Shown: positions 7,984 to 62,747 of the stretch, piece after piece
How positions within the stretch are numbered: the stretch's first letter is position 1
Layout: each line of letters starts with the position of its first letter
The notes under the pieces: model-generated
What the model saw: only the letters and a program-made list of their open reading frames with translations
Databases searched by the model: none
Told to the model about the DNA's origin: nothing
Program-made: the position numbers and the translations under genes
NCBI GenBank assembly: GCA_015063135.1
Contig: SUTA01000010.1
Coordinates: 1-64,000, forward strand
Length of the DNA: 64,000 nucleotides
Reading direction: 5' to 3'
From: Thermoplasmata archaeon
GTDB taxonomy: Archaea; Thermoplasmatota; Thermoplasmata; Methanomassiliicoccales; Methanomethylophilaceae

Positions 7984-8976
7984 ATGACCTATGCCCCGCC
8001 GTTCACGCTCACACAGCCCATGGTGGATCTGACCTTCCGCATCGGAGAGCTGGTCAGCAGGATGGAGGGATACGAGGCGCTGGACCCCAGCCCGAGACTA
8101 AGGAAACGGAACCGCATCAGGTCCATCCACTCCTCCTGCGCTATAGAAGCCAACTCGCTCACCCTCGAACAGGTATCGGACATAATCAACGGGCACCGCG
8201 TCATCGGTCCGGAGGACGAGATAAAGGAGGTGAAGAACGCCGTCGCTGCGTACTCGCTACTGGGGAGCTTCGACCCCTACGACATAGGCGAGCTCCTGAG
8301 GCTCCACGGGGTGATGATGGAAGGGCTGGCCGACGACGCCGGGAAGTTCCGCACCGGCGGCGAGGGCGTGTTCCGCGGGAGGGACCTGATATTCATGGCC
8401 CCTCCGCCGGAGCTCGTCCCGGAGCACATGCGCAACCTCTTCGGCTGGCTCAGCAGAGAGTCCGCCTCGCTCAACCCGTTGATAGCCTCCTGCGTGTTCC
8501 ACTACGAGATGGTATTCGTGCACCCGTTCTCCAACGGCAACGGGAGGATGGCTAGGCTATGGCAGACCGCGATCCTCGGCAGATGGAAAGGGGTGTTCCA
8601 CTGGATCCCCCTGGAGAACAGGATCGAGAAGGCCCAGCAGGAGTACTACGATGCCATCGACGCCTGCAACAGGGCCGGCGATTCCGCCAGGTTCGTGGAG
8701 TTCATGCTCCGGATGATCCTGAGCGCCCTCGAGGACGCCGACTACGAAATCAGGAACGAGCCCAGGGGCGGGGACAAGCTGGACAGGCTGCTGGACAAGA
8801 TGGAATCGGGGGTGTACTACTCCCGCCCCGAGCTCATGGAGATGATGTCCGCGAAATCGCAGCCGTCGTTCCACAGGGACTACCTCGGCCCCGGACTGGA
8901 GCGCGGCGTGATCTACATGGAGTACCCGCAGACACCCCGCAGCAGGAGGCAGAGGTACAGGAGATCGGACTTCCGA
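7984..8976 (+). CDS. Fic-domain protein (AMPylase-like), class II layout
   Basis: A 330-residue Fic/DOC protein. The catalytic motif HPFSNGNGRMAR is at residues 180-191, matching HxFx(D/N)GNGR, so NMP transfer to a protein hydroxyl is expected. A likely inhibitory helix near residue 50 reads SSCAIEAN; the usual Gly/Asn after Glu is Ala here. A C-terminal segment (KLDRLLDKMESGVYYSRPELM and after) resembles a winged-helix domain. Homology ends at QRYRRSDF and the next codon is CGA 8974-8976. The standard code continues to TGA 9027, inside a repeat also found after the next gene. The promoter region is very AT-rich. Confidence 0.88.
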
Positions 8977-10469: not shown

Positions 10470-11312
10470 ATGCCAGAAGCAACCGTAGGCGACTACATGA
10501 TCCGCGACGTCCAGGTCGTTGGGCCCAACATGACCGTGGAGGAGGTCAGGCAGAAGATCATCAGCTCCAACTTCCACGGCTTCCCCATAGCCGAGAACGG
10601 CTACCTCCTGGGATTCATCACCGCCAAGGAGCTCCTCAGGCACATCGACCACCCCGACGCCAAGATCCGCTCCGTCATGCGCAGGGGGACCCTCTGCGCC
10701 GTGCCCAGCATGAGCGTCAACGACGCCATGCGCGTCCTGTTCCGCTACGGGCTCAGGAATCTGCCGGTGGTGGACGAGGACAAGAAGCTGGTCGGCATCA
10801 TCTCCAACATCGACATCGTCAGGTCCCAGATCGAGAAGTCCCGCCCCGGGAAGGTCATGAGCGTCAAATCGTTCATGGAGCAGCAGAACGGCCTGAAGAT
10901 GAAGGTCGTCAACAAGGAGATCCCCATGAGCAGGATCATCCCCTCCCAGAAGGAGGTCTACATGGACGAGCTCATCGGCCGCCAATACGAGATCAAGAGG
11001 GGCCTCAACGAGCCCATCATCGTCATCGAGAGGCGCAACGGCTTCCTGGTCGTGGACGGCCACCACAGGATCATGGCCGCGAAGAAGCTCGGGATGGACA
11101 GCTTCAAGGCGATCGTCCTGGTCCCGAACGACTACGACGTGAAGCTCGGCCTGGAGAAGACCGCCGAGCGCTGGGGCCTCAAGTCCCTGGACGACGTCAC
11201 GATCATCGAGGGCGCCAAGCACCCGTTCATGGAGGTCACCACGATGCTCCTGCCCAACGAGGAGGCTTCCACCATCAACGAGACTCTGATGTCGATGCAG
11301 GGCGAGGATTGA
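10470..11312 (+). CDS. CBS-CBS-ParB-like domain protein
   Basis: A 280-residue cytosolic protein. Two CBS motifs occupy roughly residues 1-130 (TVGDYMIRDVQVVGP; then IRSVMRR...LRNLPVVDEDKKLVGII), normally a nucleotide-sensing pair. Residues about 150-230 form a ParB/sulfiredoxin-like domain: SRIIPSQKEVYMDELI, a loop of variable sequence, then FLVVDGHHRIMAAKKLG, the DGHHR motif used by ParB-like nucleases and kinases. ATG 10470 is chosen because the CBS homology begins there; upstream codons encode the repeat and promoter. It ends in TGA. Function is unknown; a ligand-gated phosphotransfer or CTPase-like role is an inference. Confidence 0.85.
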   Translation: MPEATVGDYMIRDVQVVGPNMTVEEVRQKIISSNFHGFPIAENGYLLGFITAKELLRHIDHPDAKIRSVMRRGTLCAVPSMSVNDAMRVLFRYGLRNLPVVDEDKKLVGIISNIDIVRSQIEKSRPGKVMSVKSFMEQQNGLKMKVVNKEIPMSRIIPSQKEVYMDELIGRQYEIKRGLNEPIIVIERRNGFLVVDGHHRIMAAKKLGMDSFKAIVLVPNDYDVKLGLEKTAERWGLKSLDDVTIIEGAKHPFMEVTTMLLPNEEASTINETLMSMQGED

Positions 11313-54428: not shown

Positions 54429-55055
54429 TCAAACCCCTTTGCGGTCGCCCCAGATGATCTTGTGGAGCTGCGGCAGGACCCTCGCCTCGATGCCGTCCTC
54501 CAGCACCCTGGCCACGAGCCACTCGAGCCTCTCGGTGCCGCCGACCGGCGTGAATATGACGCTGGCCTCCGGGGAGTGCGACCTGAGGTGGGCGACGGCG
54601 AACTCGTAGTCGGCATCGTCGGCGATGACGTACTTCAGCTGGTCCTTCGCCCTGATGATGCGCATGTTGGATTCCAGCATGCGGTCGGTCATGCCCGACG
54701 AGGGGCACTTGACGTCCATGCTGATCATCACCATCGGGCTGTCTGGCACAAATGAGATGTCGGTGGCGCCGTTGGTCTCGACGACGACCCTCTTCCCCGC
54801 GTCCAGGAGCCTCCCGATGAGCTCGGGCATGTCGGGCTGGAGCAGCGGCTCCCCGCCCGTGACGCACACGGTGCGGGCGTCCCCCACGACTTCCATTATC
54901 TCGTCGAGGGACATCTCCTCGCCCCCCTCCATGGAGTACTGGGTGTCGCACCAGCTGCACCTGAGGTTGCACCCGACCGTCCTGACGAAGGTGGTCGGCA
55001 GGCCCATGGTGAGGCCCTCCCCCTGGATGGAGCGGAAGATCTCGCATATCCTCAT
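54429..55055 (-). CDS. queE: 7-carboxy-7-deazaguanine synthase (radical SAM)
   Basis: A 208-residue radical SAM enzyme, CPH4 to CDG in preQ0 synthesis. FRSIQGEGLTMGLPTTFVR and the cluster motif CNLRCSWCDT are diagnostic, with VCVTGGEPLLQPD following. It is encoded in the operon mtxX-queD-queC-queE. ATG 55055 lies inside the end of queC (14-nt overlap). In archaea preQ0 leads to archaeosine in tRNA. Ends in TGA. Confidence 0.95.
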   Translation of the reverse strand: MRICEIFRSIQGEGLTMGLPTTFVRTVGCNLRCSWCDTQYSMEGGEEMSLDEIMEVVGDARTVCVTGGEPLLQPDMPELIGRLLDAGKRVVVETNGATDISFVPDSPMVMISMDVKCPSSGMTDRMLESNMRIIRAKDQLKYVIADDADYEFAVAHLRSHSPEASVIFTPVGGTERLEWLVARVLEDGIEARVLPQLHKIIWGDRKGV

Positions 55056-55734
55056 AGTCGATCTCGTCCTCGTAGCCGGCCTCCTTGAAGCCGGCGAGCC
55101 TGAGCCTGCAGGAATCGCAGTGCCCGCATGCCTTCTCCCCGCCGTTGTAGCAAGACCAGGTCAGCTGCAGCGGGGCCCCCAGCCTCTTGCCCCTGCGGAC
55201 GATGTCCGCCTTGGAGTCGCGGAGAATCGGGGTCATTATCCTGATGGGGTTCCCCTCGACGCCGGCCTTGGTCCCCCTCCTGAGGGTCTCCTCGAAGGCC
55301 TCGAAGAACTCGGGCCTGCAGTCGGGGTACCCGGAGTAGTCGACGACGTTGGCGCCGATGTATATCCTGTCTGCGTCGACGGACTCGCAGAGCCCGGCGG
55401 CGATGCTCAGGAAGATGATGTTCCTAGCGGGGACGTAGGTTATCGGGATGTCCCCGCCGATCTCCTCCCTGTCCTCCGGCACGTCTATGTCGGAACGGGT
55501 GAGCGCGGACCTGAACGAGCTGAGGTTCAGGTCGATGATGGCATGGTCTATGCCGTAGAACTTGCAGACCGCGGCCGCCGAATCCAGCTCCCTGGTGTGC
55601 CTCTGGCCGTAGCGGAAGCTTATCGCGGTAACGTCGCAGCCGTCGTCGATGGCCTGGGCCAGCGTGGTCGTGGAATCCAGTCCGCCCGAGAGCAGGACGA
55701 CCGCCCTGGGCTTCAAAGGACCACCGTGTACCAT
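55042..55734 (-). CDS. queC: 7-cyano-7-deazaguanine synthase
   Basis: A 230-residue PP-loop ATP pyrophosphatase, CDG to preQ0. PP-loop VVLLSGGLDSTTT at about residue 12, FRYGQRHTRELD, and zinc site CxxxxxxxxCGHCDSC (CYNGGEKACGHCDSC). The length is exactly normal if CGA 55042-55044 after DYEDM is the stop. With the standard code the frame runs about 225 codons further to 54367, antagonising queE in another frame, which no QueC does. Start ATG 55734 overlaps queD. Confidence 0.93.
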
Positions 55735-56186
55735 GCCGTCTGTCCCCTCTCCTCGTCCAATCCTATCGAGAGCGAGGAGACGTTGTCCGGGATGTCGATC
55801 TCGGCGACCATCCTCTCTGCCATCATCTTGGACATCTCCTCGGCGGTGGTGGTGGGGATGTCCAGCAGCGTGACGTCCATCCTGGGGAAGACGTACCTCT
55901 TGCCGCAGCTGACGGCCTCGACGGAATCGCCATCCATGGTCAGCTTAACGTCGTCTGACCTGGTGGGCAGCAGGGTCTTGTGGTCGAGCTCGTCGATGAT
56001 CTCCCTGAGCTTCTTCTTCAGTACGACGAAGTCCATGATCATGCCCTCCGCGCCGATCTCTCCCTCTAGCCTCAGCCTGACGATGTAGGAGTGGCCGTGG
56101 AGCCTGGAGCACTTCTCGTGCCTGGGTATGAAGTGGCATGCGGAGAACCTTATGCCGGAGTAGCCGCCGTCGATTTCCAGTATCAT
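55713..56186 (-). CDS. queD: 6-carboxytetrahydropterin synthase (QueD)
   Basis: A 157-residue 6-pyruvoyl-tetrahydropterin-synthase-fold enzyme making CPH4 from dihydroneopterin triphosphate. Zinc His ligands: FSACHFIP and RLHGHSY; MIMDFVVLKKKLREIIDELDHKTLL is the typical second half (split by position, residues about 61-85). Start ATG 56186 overlaps mtxX (ATGA). Ends in TGA inside the start of queC. Confidence 0.94.
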   Translation of the reverse strand: MILEIDGGYSGIRFSACHFIPRHEKCSRLHGHSYIVRLRLEGEIGAEGMIMDFVVLKKKLREIIDELDHKTLLPTRSDDVKLTMDGDSVEAVSCGKRYVFPRMDVTLLDIPTTTAEEMSKMMAERMVAEIDIPDNVSSLSIGLDEERGQTAWYTVVL

Positions 56187-61077: not shown

Positions 61078-62079
61078 ATGCGCCAGTACGGATTCAAGGT
61101 CGTCCCCGCGGAGGACGACGCAGCAGTACCCGTCGCCGTGGCCGGCCAGGCCATGGTGGACATCCAGAAGCTCCTCACAGACATAGGCACCATGCTGGTG
61201 AAGGTCGAGCTCAGGGTGCAGGGGGACCTTGATCCCAGGCTGAAGGCCAAGTTCGACCTCAAGATCGGCGGATCATCCGGCTCCGGGATCGGCTCCGACC
61301 CGGACAAGGGCAGCGAGGACCTGATGGAGGAATCCATGAAGATGCTCTGCTCGACCCTCGACTTCCTCGGGAAGGGCGTCGTGGGCGACTGGTTCGACGA
61401 CTACTTCCCGGACCCGTACGGCAGGAGGGAGGTCGCCAGGGATGTGCTGGCATTGTGCGACCACCTCGACGGCTTCGTCCTCGAGTACGGCCCCGCGGAC
61501 GCCCAGAGGAGGTTCGGCAGGATCGACCGCGAGAAGGTCGCCGCCGTCGCCGACAGGGACGTCTCCAGGATACCCGCAGTGGTCATCGGAGTCATCTACA
61601 GGGACCCCGTGAAGGTCAACCACTGGCACATTTCCAACGGGAGCGACGATCTGGAGATCACCTTCGCCGACAACATAGCGAAGAACGACATCCCCGAGTT
61701 CGCGAAGGCGGGCCCGGTCATAGTCTCCGGCAGCGTCCGCCTGGACGAGGATGGCAGGCGCACCGCGGTCACCGACGTCAGCGGCTGCTACACATTCCCC
61801 ATGGTGAAGTTCCAGAGGATCATCACCCCGCAGAGGGACATACCCCTCCTGAACCCTGCCATCGGCACGCCCGGCTACGACGCGGATAAGGGGCTCTGGC
61901 ACCTTTCCTGCGAGCTCCTCGGCATAGACGAATCGAAGCCCTCCTGGGACGAGTGCGTCCTGGCCTTCCACGACTACTTCGAGTTCCTGTGGGAGACCTA
62001 CTGCGACACAGAGGAGACCTTCGAGGGCGAGGAGGCCGAGGTCCAGGAGTACCTGCGCTCCCTGATGCCCGTCGCGCGA
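61078..62079 (+). CDS. Hypothetical archaeal protein
   Basis: A 333-residue soluble acidic protein starting MRQYGFKVVP. Possible strand-rich region around AVVIGVIYRDPVKVNHWHISN and VIVSGSVRLDEDGRRTAVTD, and an acidic C-terminal helix (EETFEGEEAEVQEYLRS). No family recognised. It ends at CGA 62077-62079 after SLMPVA. The standard code would fuse it to the RNase P subunit that follows, even though a TATA-like TCTTATAGG and a new ATG lie between. ATG 61078 follows an AT-rich promoter shared divergently with L10e. Confidence 0.75.
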
Positions 62080-62136
62080 TTGCGAGCTTCCGCGCACGTT
62101 TCTTATAGGACTTCCGCAGTCGAGTCGCCGAGCACA

Positions 62137-62451
62137 ATGTCGAGGAGGCGCATATCCCACTCGGAGGTGGCCCGCATAGGCGAGCAACGCATCTCCAGGC
62201 TGCTCGACCTCTCGGTCGAGGCCCTCAGGGCCGGAAGGGCCGACAGGGCGCGCAGGTACGTGGATATAGCAAGGAGAATCGGCATGAAGACCCGCGTCGG
62301 CATGCCCAAGGACAGGCGCTACTGCAAGAGGTGCCTGGCGCCGCTCGTGCCCGGGCTCAGCTGCACGATCAGGCTGAACAACGGGACCAGGAGTGTCACA
62401 TGCGGGCTGTGCGGGAAGGTATGGCGCATGCCGTACGACGGAAGGGAGCGA
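62137..62451 (+). CDS. rnp4: RNase P protein component 4 (Rpr2/Rpp21)
   Basis: A 104-residue subunit of RNase P, which matures tRNA 5' ends. Helical N-terminus (ISHSEVARIGEQRISRLLDL) and Zn ribbon: YCKRCLAPLVPG and SVTCGLCGKV give the four Cys. ATG 62137 is about 30 nt after TCTTATAGG. The end reads GGG GAG CGA ACA TGA; CGA is 62449-62451, TGA 62457. The CRM gene begins 2 nt after CGA, suggesting coupling. Confidence 0.92.
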
Positions 62452-62453
62452 AC

Positions 62454-62747
62454 ATGACAGAGAGGGAAGCCAAGAAGGAGCTCATGAGGAGGGCCAACGA
62501 GATCAGCCCCACGGTCCATGTGGGCAAGGACGGCCTTGACGAGGGGCTCTACGCCGAGATCACTGCGCAGCTGAAGAAGAACCGCCTGATCAAGGTGAAG
62601 GTGCTGTCCAACTCCGACAGCGGGGCCAGAGACGCCGCGGACGCCATCGAGGCCGAGACCGGTGCGGTCGTGGTGGACGTGCGCGGAGGGGTCATAGTGC
62701 TGACCGACAAGCGCACCTGGACGTCGCTCTCCCAGAAGAAATTCCGA
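62454..62747 (+). CDS. CRM-domain (YhbY-like) RNA-binding protein
   Basis: A 97-residue CRM/YhbY protein: ANEISPTVHVGKDGLDEGLY, LKKNRLIKVKVL and VVVDVRGGVIVLTDKR make the single alpha/beta CRM fold. Associated with ribosome assembly. In-frame CGA occurs at 62745-62747 (after SQKKF) and again at 62757-62759, where the A is the first base of serS ATG (CGATG). The first would be the stop; the standard code runs to 62813 inside serS. Confidence 0.88.

Follow-up and report, generated by a model that had tools for sequence, protein, structure and literature searches.

Among the changes of the genetic code reported so far from prokaryotes, a stop codon was turned into an amino acid codon or one amino acid codon into another, with the conversion of an amino acid codon into a stop being described only from organelles (PMC12574857). 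The organellar examples include UCA in the mitochondria of Scenedesmaceae (PMC6821328) and UUA/UCA in the plastids of peDinoflagellates, the latter case (2025) being termed by its authors the first outside mitochondria (PMC12574857). In these reassignments a sense codon closes genes and vanishes from gene interiors, and the release factor is altered; they concern Leu/Ser codons of small genomes with bacterial-type release factors. Among bacteria, the rare arginine codons CGA/CGG and AGG became codons for Trp, Gln and Met by codon capture, with loss of the tRNA(UCG) in some, as described using Codetta (PMC8629427), a screen that by its own statement is unable to detect sense-to-stop changes (PMC9825746). 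A further system to be considered is the bacterial prfB gene, which encodes RF2 and contains an in-frame UGA at which its own product terminates and which is bypassed by frameshift; this switch tends to be lost in bacteria with high use of RF2-specific stops (PMC12421855, PMC13245932).

The window examined here is a stretch of 64,000 nucleotides from a MAG of the genus UBA71, Methanomethylophilaceae (referred to as G000; 40 contigs, 1.86 Mb, 87% complete). When read with translation table 11, positions 61078-62457 of the forward strand form a single open frame of 459 codons, with the next standard stop being the TGA at 62455-62457. The sequence-only reading had proposed that two genes, for a 333-residue protein and for the RNase P subunit Rpr2, share this frame without a standard stop and are parted by CGA acting as a stop. 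The open frame was confirmed, and homology was found to support the division of the genes by CGA, both here and genome-wide, where CGA was identified directly behind the C-termini of relatives' proteins.

The gene for the 333-residue protein (61078..62076, +) was aligned by relatives over residues 1-333, mostly with 42-54% identity, and the alignments end there; a Pfam search of these first 333 residues gave no family match. It adjoins Rpr2 throughout the genus, a conserved neighbourhood. Codon 334 is CGA (62077..62079, +), at the place where the stop of the relatives, mostly TGA, is located. A TATA-like TCTTATAGG was read in the sequence at 62101..62109 (+) as a possible promoter of Rpr2. The separate gene for Rpr2/Rpp21 (62137..62448, +; PF04032, E 3e-12) would encode 104 residues. 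Its Pfam match covers residues 371-446 of the 459-codon frame, while matches to the separate Rpr2 of relatives start mostly at residues 335-356 of the fused frame, in which the ATG at 62137 is residue 354. A second CGA (62449..62451, +) lies at the end of Rpr2 homology and 2 bases 5' of the ATG of the next gene; its last base, 62451, is where the sequence-only reading had ended the feature, this being the CGA that closes Rpr2. The next gene, for a CRS1/YhbY-domain protein of 97 residues (62454..62744, +; PF01985, E 4e-21), ends in a third CGA (62745..62747, +), and its orthologues (g1249) in relatives stop at the corresponding position, either with a standard stop codon or with CGA.

A match to the locus was found in 30 of the 31 genomes of the genus (the focal one included, G029 being the exception), and the 333-residue protein and Rpr2 are separate genes in every matching relative. 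For G007, G018, G019, G020, G026 and G030, a single alignment covers both genes with a TGA inside (sometimes also TAG or TAA), while in most other relatives two pieces were matched, corresponding to residues 1-333 and about 350-455. A fusion in relatives with the standard code, which the sequence-only reading had named as evidence against itself, was checked for and seen in none. As judged from these alignments, the fusion is only apparent and arises from applying the standard code to the window. Chance was rejected as an explanation of the CGA at 62077 because CGA recurs in this pattern throughout the genome.

CGA is an arginine codon almost everywhere else. Its use at gene ends was analysed over 1.765 of the 1.861 Mb of G000. 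Gene calling with CGA as a stop gave 663 CGA-ended genes among 1507, and the use of CGT, CGG or AGA as the extra stop gave 537-745 such ends; since shadow ORFs inflate naive counts of this kind, only homology-based counts were taken as evidence. For the decisive test, standard-code proteins of relatives, taken from genomes in which CGA stops are absent or almost so, were used as probes. The codon directly behind the last residue of the relatives was CGA in 19 of 47 cases and TGA in 17, with any other codon occurring at most twice. When the first of TAA, TAG, TGA or CGA was sought in a small window near the C-terminus, 30 of 67 genes were closed by CGA, 34 by TGA and three by neither; without CGA as a stop, 25 of the same 67 genes were left stopless. 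The control codons CGT, CGG, AGA, CTA, TCA and CAA took only 1-10 genes and left 18-25 stopless. Among orthologues of the CGA-ended genes of G000, the stop was TGA in 338, TAA in 29 and CGA in 43, the median distance between stop and alignment end being 0 codons. The sequence after CGA appears non-coding, as it does after TGA and TAA, with a coding score per codon of -0.25 behind CGA and -0.31 behind TGA, compared with +0.40 inside genes. Furthermore, 45% of CGA codons in the standard-code ORFs of G000 lie in the last tenth of the ORF, versus 11-25% for other rare codons. These results suggest that CGA is very probably a genuine and frequent translation stop codon in G000, and that it closes about 45%, or nearly half, of its genes.

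A similar picture was obtained for the window, where CGA is concentrated near the 3' ends of the standard-code ORFs and where, with CGA as a stop, about 26 of the 61 genes called end in it. These include a gene at 7984..8976 (+) and one at 55042..55734 (-; g1238), which we take to be QueC-like from the look of its sequence and whose orthologues in relatives are closed either by a standard stop codon or by CGA.

Within genes, 32 CGA were identified among 1,780 aligned arginine codons of G000, nearly all of them at alignment ends or within the first 45 codons, where they probably lie upstream of the true start. This does not hold for the cmk-truB junction or for a pair of CGA-ended genes near 55524-56186 of the window. 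Two near-start CGA were found in a gene of 1,106 residues. CGA is nearly absent from the conserved gene interiors of G000, as expected of a sense-to-stop change. The only continuous homology across an in-frame CGA in relatives was found for the cmk-truB pair, where the relatives likewise have CGA. Two candidates for genes running through CGA (g1032 and g0678) were rejected, as both proved to be tandem paralogues. A tandem paralogue pair in one frame with only CGA between its members was observed at G000:C32:36296-40180; both genes are CGA-ended and presumably encode proteins resembling cation antiporters.

Comparison with other members of the genus identified CGA stops by homology in G011, G012, G018, G019, G020, G021, G023, G024, G026 and G030, as well as in the named MAGs L247 and L250-L253, with fewer in G002, G004, G009 and G027. 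None were seen by the same approach in G001, G003, G005, G006, G008, G010, G013-G017 and G022. CGA counts in the named loci from length-only gene calls were discarded as inflated by shadow ORFs, and aligned codons were used in their place. CGA was likewise not accepted as a stop in the outgroups L304-L307, which are very GC-rich and where the candidate codons sit 2-27 codons past the alignment end. In other genus members and in Methanomethylophilus-like relatives, CGA stops are less frequent than in G000. Among the latter, L283, L284, L286, L288, L289 and L297 have a cmk gene closed by CGA, with truB following immediately in the same frame; in L294 the codon is TGA. The arrangement of cmk and truB as one frame parted only by CGA could also be a case of regulated readthrough. 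On a tree of aRF1, G000 forms the deepest branch of the genus (the aRF1 of MAG UBA71, L318, being identical to that of G002), and the state of CGA as a stop requires 8 label changes. Because it is present in Methanomethylophilus-like loci too, CGA termination probably predates the genus and was gained or lost on some of the intervening branches.

The arginine tRNAs found in G000 have the anticodons UCU, CCU, GCG and CCG. No tRNA-Arg(UCG) was detected in this MAG, nor any full-length sequence closely related to it; as the assembly is 87% complete, this result is strong but not final. An overly strict search pattern had suggested loss of this tRNA in 27 of the 31 genus members, a result that was discarded after BLAST, ARAGORN and a looser pattern identified a normal-looking tRNA-Arg(UCG) in at least 17 of 31, some of them users of CGA stops. 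CGA stops and tRNA-Arg(UCG) occur together in G011, G012 and G018-G021, and CGA may be ambiguous in such members because the tRNA persists there. No such tRNA was detected in G026 or G030. U is nearly universal at tRNA position 33. Within the clade G001-G015, the three tRNA-Arg(UCG) that were checked (L367, L378 and L373, of G003, G006 and G013; anticodon loop read by eye) have C33, and this tRNA is possibly a weakened decoder of the CGA of aRF1. Two nearby tRNA-Pro(UGG) calls were noted at G000:C4:9149-9224 and 10851-10924, one of which scored only 33 bits with the covariance model.

Examination of the release factor showed that aRF1 residue 68 (human numbering), located seven residues past the N of the NIKS motif, is R in 18 outgroup loci and M/L in 57 loci of the family. 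Arg is also present in the solved aRF1/eRF1 chains that were compared. The share of CGA among arginine codons outside aRF1 is 4.9% in the R68 outgroups versus 0.7% in the M/L68 family. The aRF1 of G000 additionally has Asn69-His70 in place of Lys-Asn (K69N, N70H), and NIRS was found in place of NIKS (Lys63Arg) in the aRF1 of L209 (G018), L247 and L299, a change of the residue in contact with the first base of the stop codon. According to free-energy simulations, Lys63 of the NIKS loop rejects C in the first codon position, while Arg68 holds the loop, with Arg68Ala lowering this rejection (PMC5681627). On these grounds it is likely that aRF1 recognises CGA. The change of Arg68 to Met/Leu across the family (together with Lys69Asn and Asn70His in G000) would alter support of the NIKS loop and relax rejection of first-position C, so that aRF1, the single release factor, would read CGA besides UGA and UAA. 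Met68 is not sufficient to abolish sense CGA, since the horse-gut MAGs L278 and L291 have Met68 and yet keep CGA within genes (22 of 287 and 8 of 135 arginine codons outside aRF1). CAA (567 codons) and CAG (10234 codons) were not lost from G000, although the simulations predict the same risk for them.

The aRF1 gene itself was found to retain the codon. Exactly one CGA is present in aRF1 in each of the 24 genus relatives counted (24 CGA of 517 arginine codons), at a conserved Arg at NIKS+20 and in the same frame. In other genera the CGA of aRF1 lies at -33, -8 or +65 relative to NIKS, or elsewhere. Of all aligned CGA codons, 22 of 28 lie in aRF1 in 21 UBA71-type loci and 10 of 12 in ten Methanomethylophilus-like loci. 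Nearly all species of the family retain one or more CGA in this gene. Three M/L68 genomes (L290, L321 and G000) have no CGA within aRF1; in G000 the internal site is CGC and the gene itself is CGA-ended. The persistence of a rare codon just in the gene of its potential reader, at changing positions, suggests feedback, and on analogy it is fairly probable that the CGA of aRF1 is an autoregulatory stop. Abundant aRF1 would stop its own synthesis at CGA, while scarce aRF1 would allow readthrough by a weak tRNA-Arg(UCG), so that competition between termination and slow decoding by this rare, partly degenerate tRNA would set the level of aRF1. This arrangement would resemble prfB in being a release-factor gene with an in-frame codon at which its own product terminates, and G000 resembles bacteria that have lost the prfB switch, as it has many CGA-ended genes and the CGA within aRF1 is gone. 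The two differ in how the codon is passed, by frameshift at UGA in prfB and, as we infer, by tRNA readthrough of an arginine codon in the archaeal gene. A ribosomal frameshift at the CGA of aRF1 was not supported, the frame being continuous through the codon in alignments; for this reason aRF1 is not a member of the prfB type and at most works likewise.

Taken as a sequence of events, aRF1 reading CGA would have driven the codon from coding sequences across the family, with survival mainly inside aRF1, and in several lineages a change of TGA to CGA at gene ends would have become harmless. In the focal lineage CGA would then have taken about 45% of gene ends and the CGA of aRF1 would have become CGC, in a genome where tRNA-Arg(UCG) can no longer be detected. 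We consider it reasonably probable, overall, that the loss of Arg68 made CGA readable by aRF1, and that the codon, retained chiefly within the aRF1 gene to act as a self-limiting switch, was captured in lineages of the UBA71 genus to serve as a fourth stop.

Other explanations of the CGA-ended genes were also considered. If CGA were unassigned, a ribosome without a tRNA for it would stall, and the protein would be freed by rescue (Pelota, or aRF1 without codon recognition). The lack of a detected UCG tRNA in G000 fits this, as does the finding that Neurospora eRF1 releases at rare codons like CGA without full codon recognition (PMC6755126). Such rescue is nonetheless unlikely, given that CGA stops also occur where tRNA-Arg(UCG) is kept, that closing about 45% of genes, aRF1 among them, with an unread codon would be costly, and that the retention of CGA within the aRF1 gene suggests that this factor recognises the codon. 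For the locus in the window, the open frame under table 11 is what would be expected of a real fusion, in which CGA encodes arginine and a 50-kDa protein combines the 333-residue domain with Rpr2. With the genes separate in all matching relatives, Rpr2 homology beginning near its own ATG and the same break at CGA found genome-wide, this is extremely improbable.

C-to-U editing occurs in plant organelles, and conversion of CGA to UGA in the mRNA would account for the interchange of CGA and TGA at the same gene ends. Against this, at out-of-frame sites a GCG codon followed by A is aligned with Val of relatives in 2.4% of cases, compared with 3.6-4.8% when other bases follow, ACG, CCG and TCG before A likewise show no trace, and the editing would need knowledge of the reading frame, making it very improbable. 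As G000 is a MAG, TGA might also have been miscalled as CGA through a sequencing or assembly artefact. To this we assign almost no probability, since other frames have no T-to-C excess, CGA stops recur in independent assemblies (L247, L250-L253, L283, L284, L286, L288, L289 and L297), and the tRNA and aRF1 changes fit CGA as a stop.

With CGA read as a stop codon, the altered code of G000 belongs to a known kind. It is comparable to the organellar reassignments in the features described above but differs in affecting a 1.86-Mb archaeal genome, an eRF1-type factor and an Arg codon. It is also comparable to the bacterial cases in the rare Arg codon, the loss of the tRNA(UCG) in some of them and the codon capture, although here the codon became a stop and not an amino acid codon. 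In the open-access literature, no report of CGA as a stop outside organelle genes was found. The non-organellar genome, the Arg codon, the eRF1-type factor and the possible autoregulation are to our knowledge new. If true, this would be the first sense-to-stop change outside organellar genomes and the first example of an archaeal release factor regulating itself. Because the suspected cause (the release factor), supporting changes (tRNA loss and codon depletion) and intermediate stages are visible together in this family, the sequence of steps in a codon reassignment becomes testable, and the role predicted for Arg68 against first-position C can be tested on naturally occurring variants. Under standard-code annotation of these gut methanogens, neighbouring genes are fused and false C-terminal tails are added, and genetic-code screens such as Codetta miss CGA as a stop.

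A second alteration of the code was indicated for G000, as a pyrrolysyl-tRNA synthetase (PylS) was identified at G000:C18:72418-73092 (L392) and, unlike for CGA, TGA and TAA, coding sequence continues past TAG. On the basis of these two observations, UAG probably encodes pyrrolysine. G000 shares its order and PylS with the pyrrolysine-decoding Methanomassiliicoccales, in which the change of UAG is stop-to-sense, with the change of CGA from sense to stop being added to it here; G000 would in that case combine UAG as a pyrrolysine codon with CGA as a stop.
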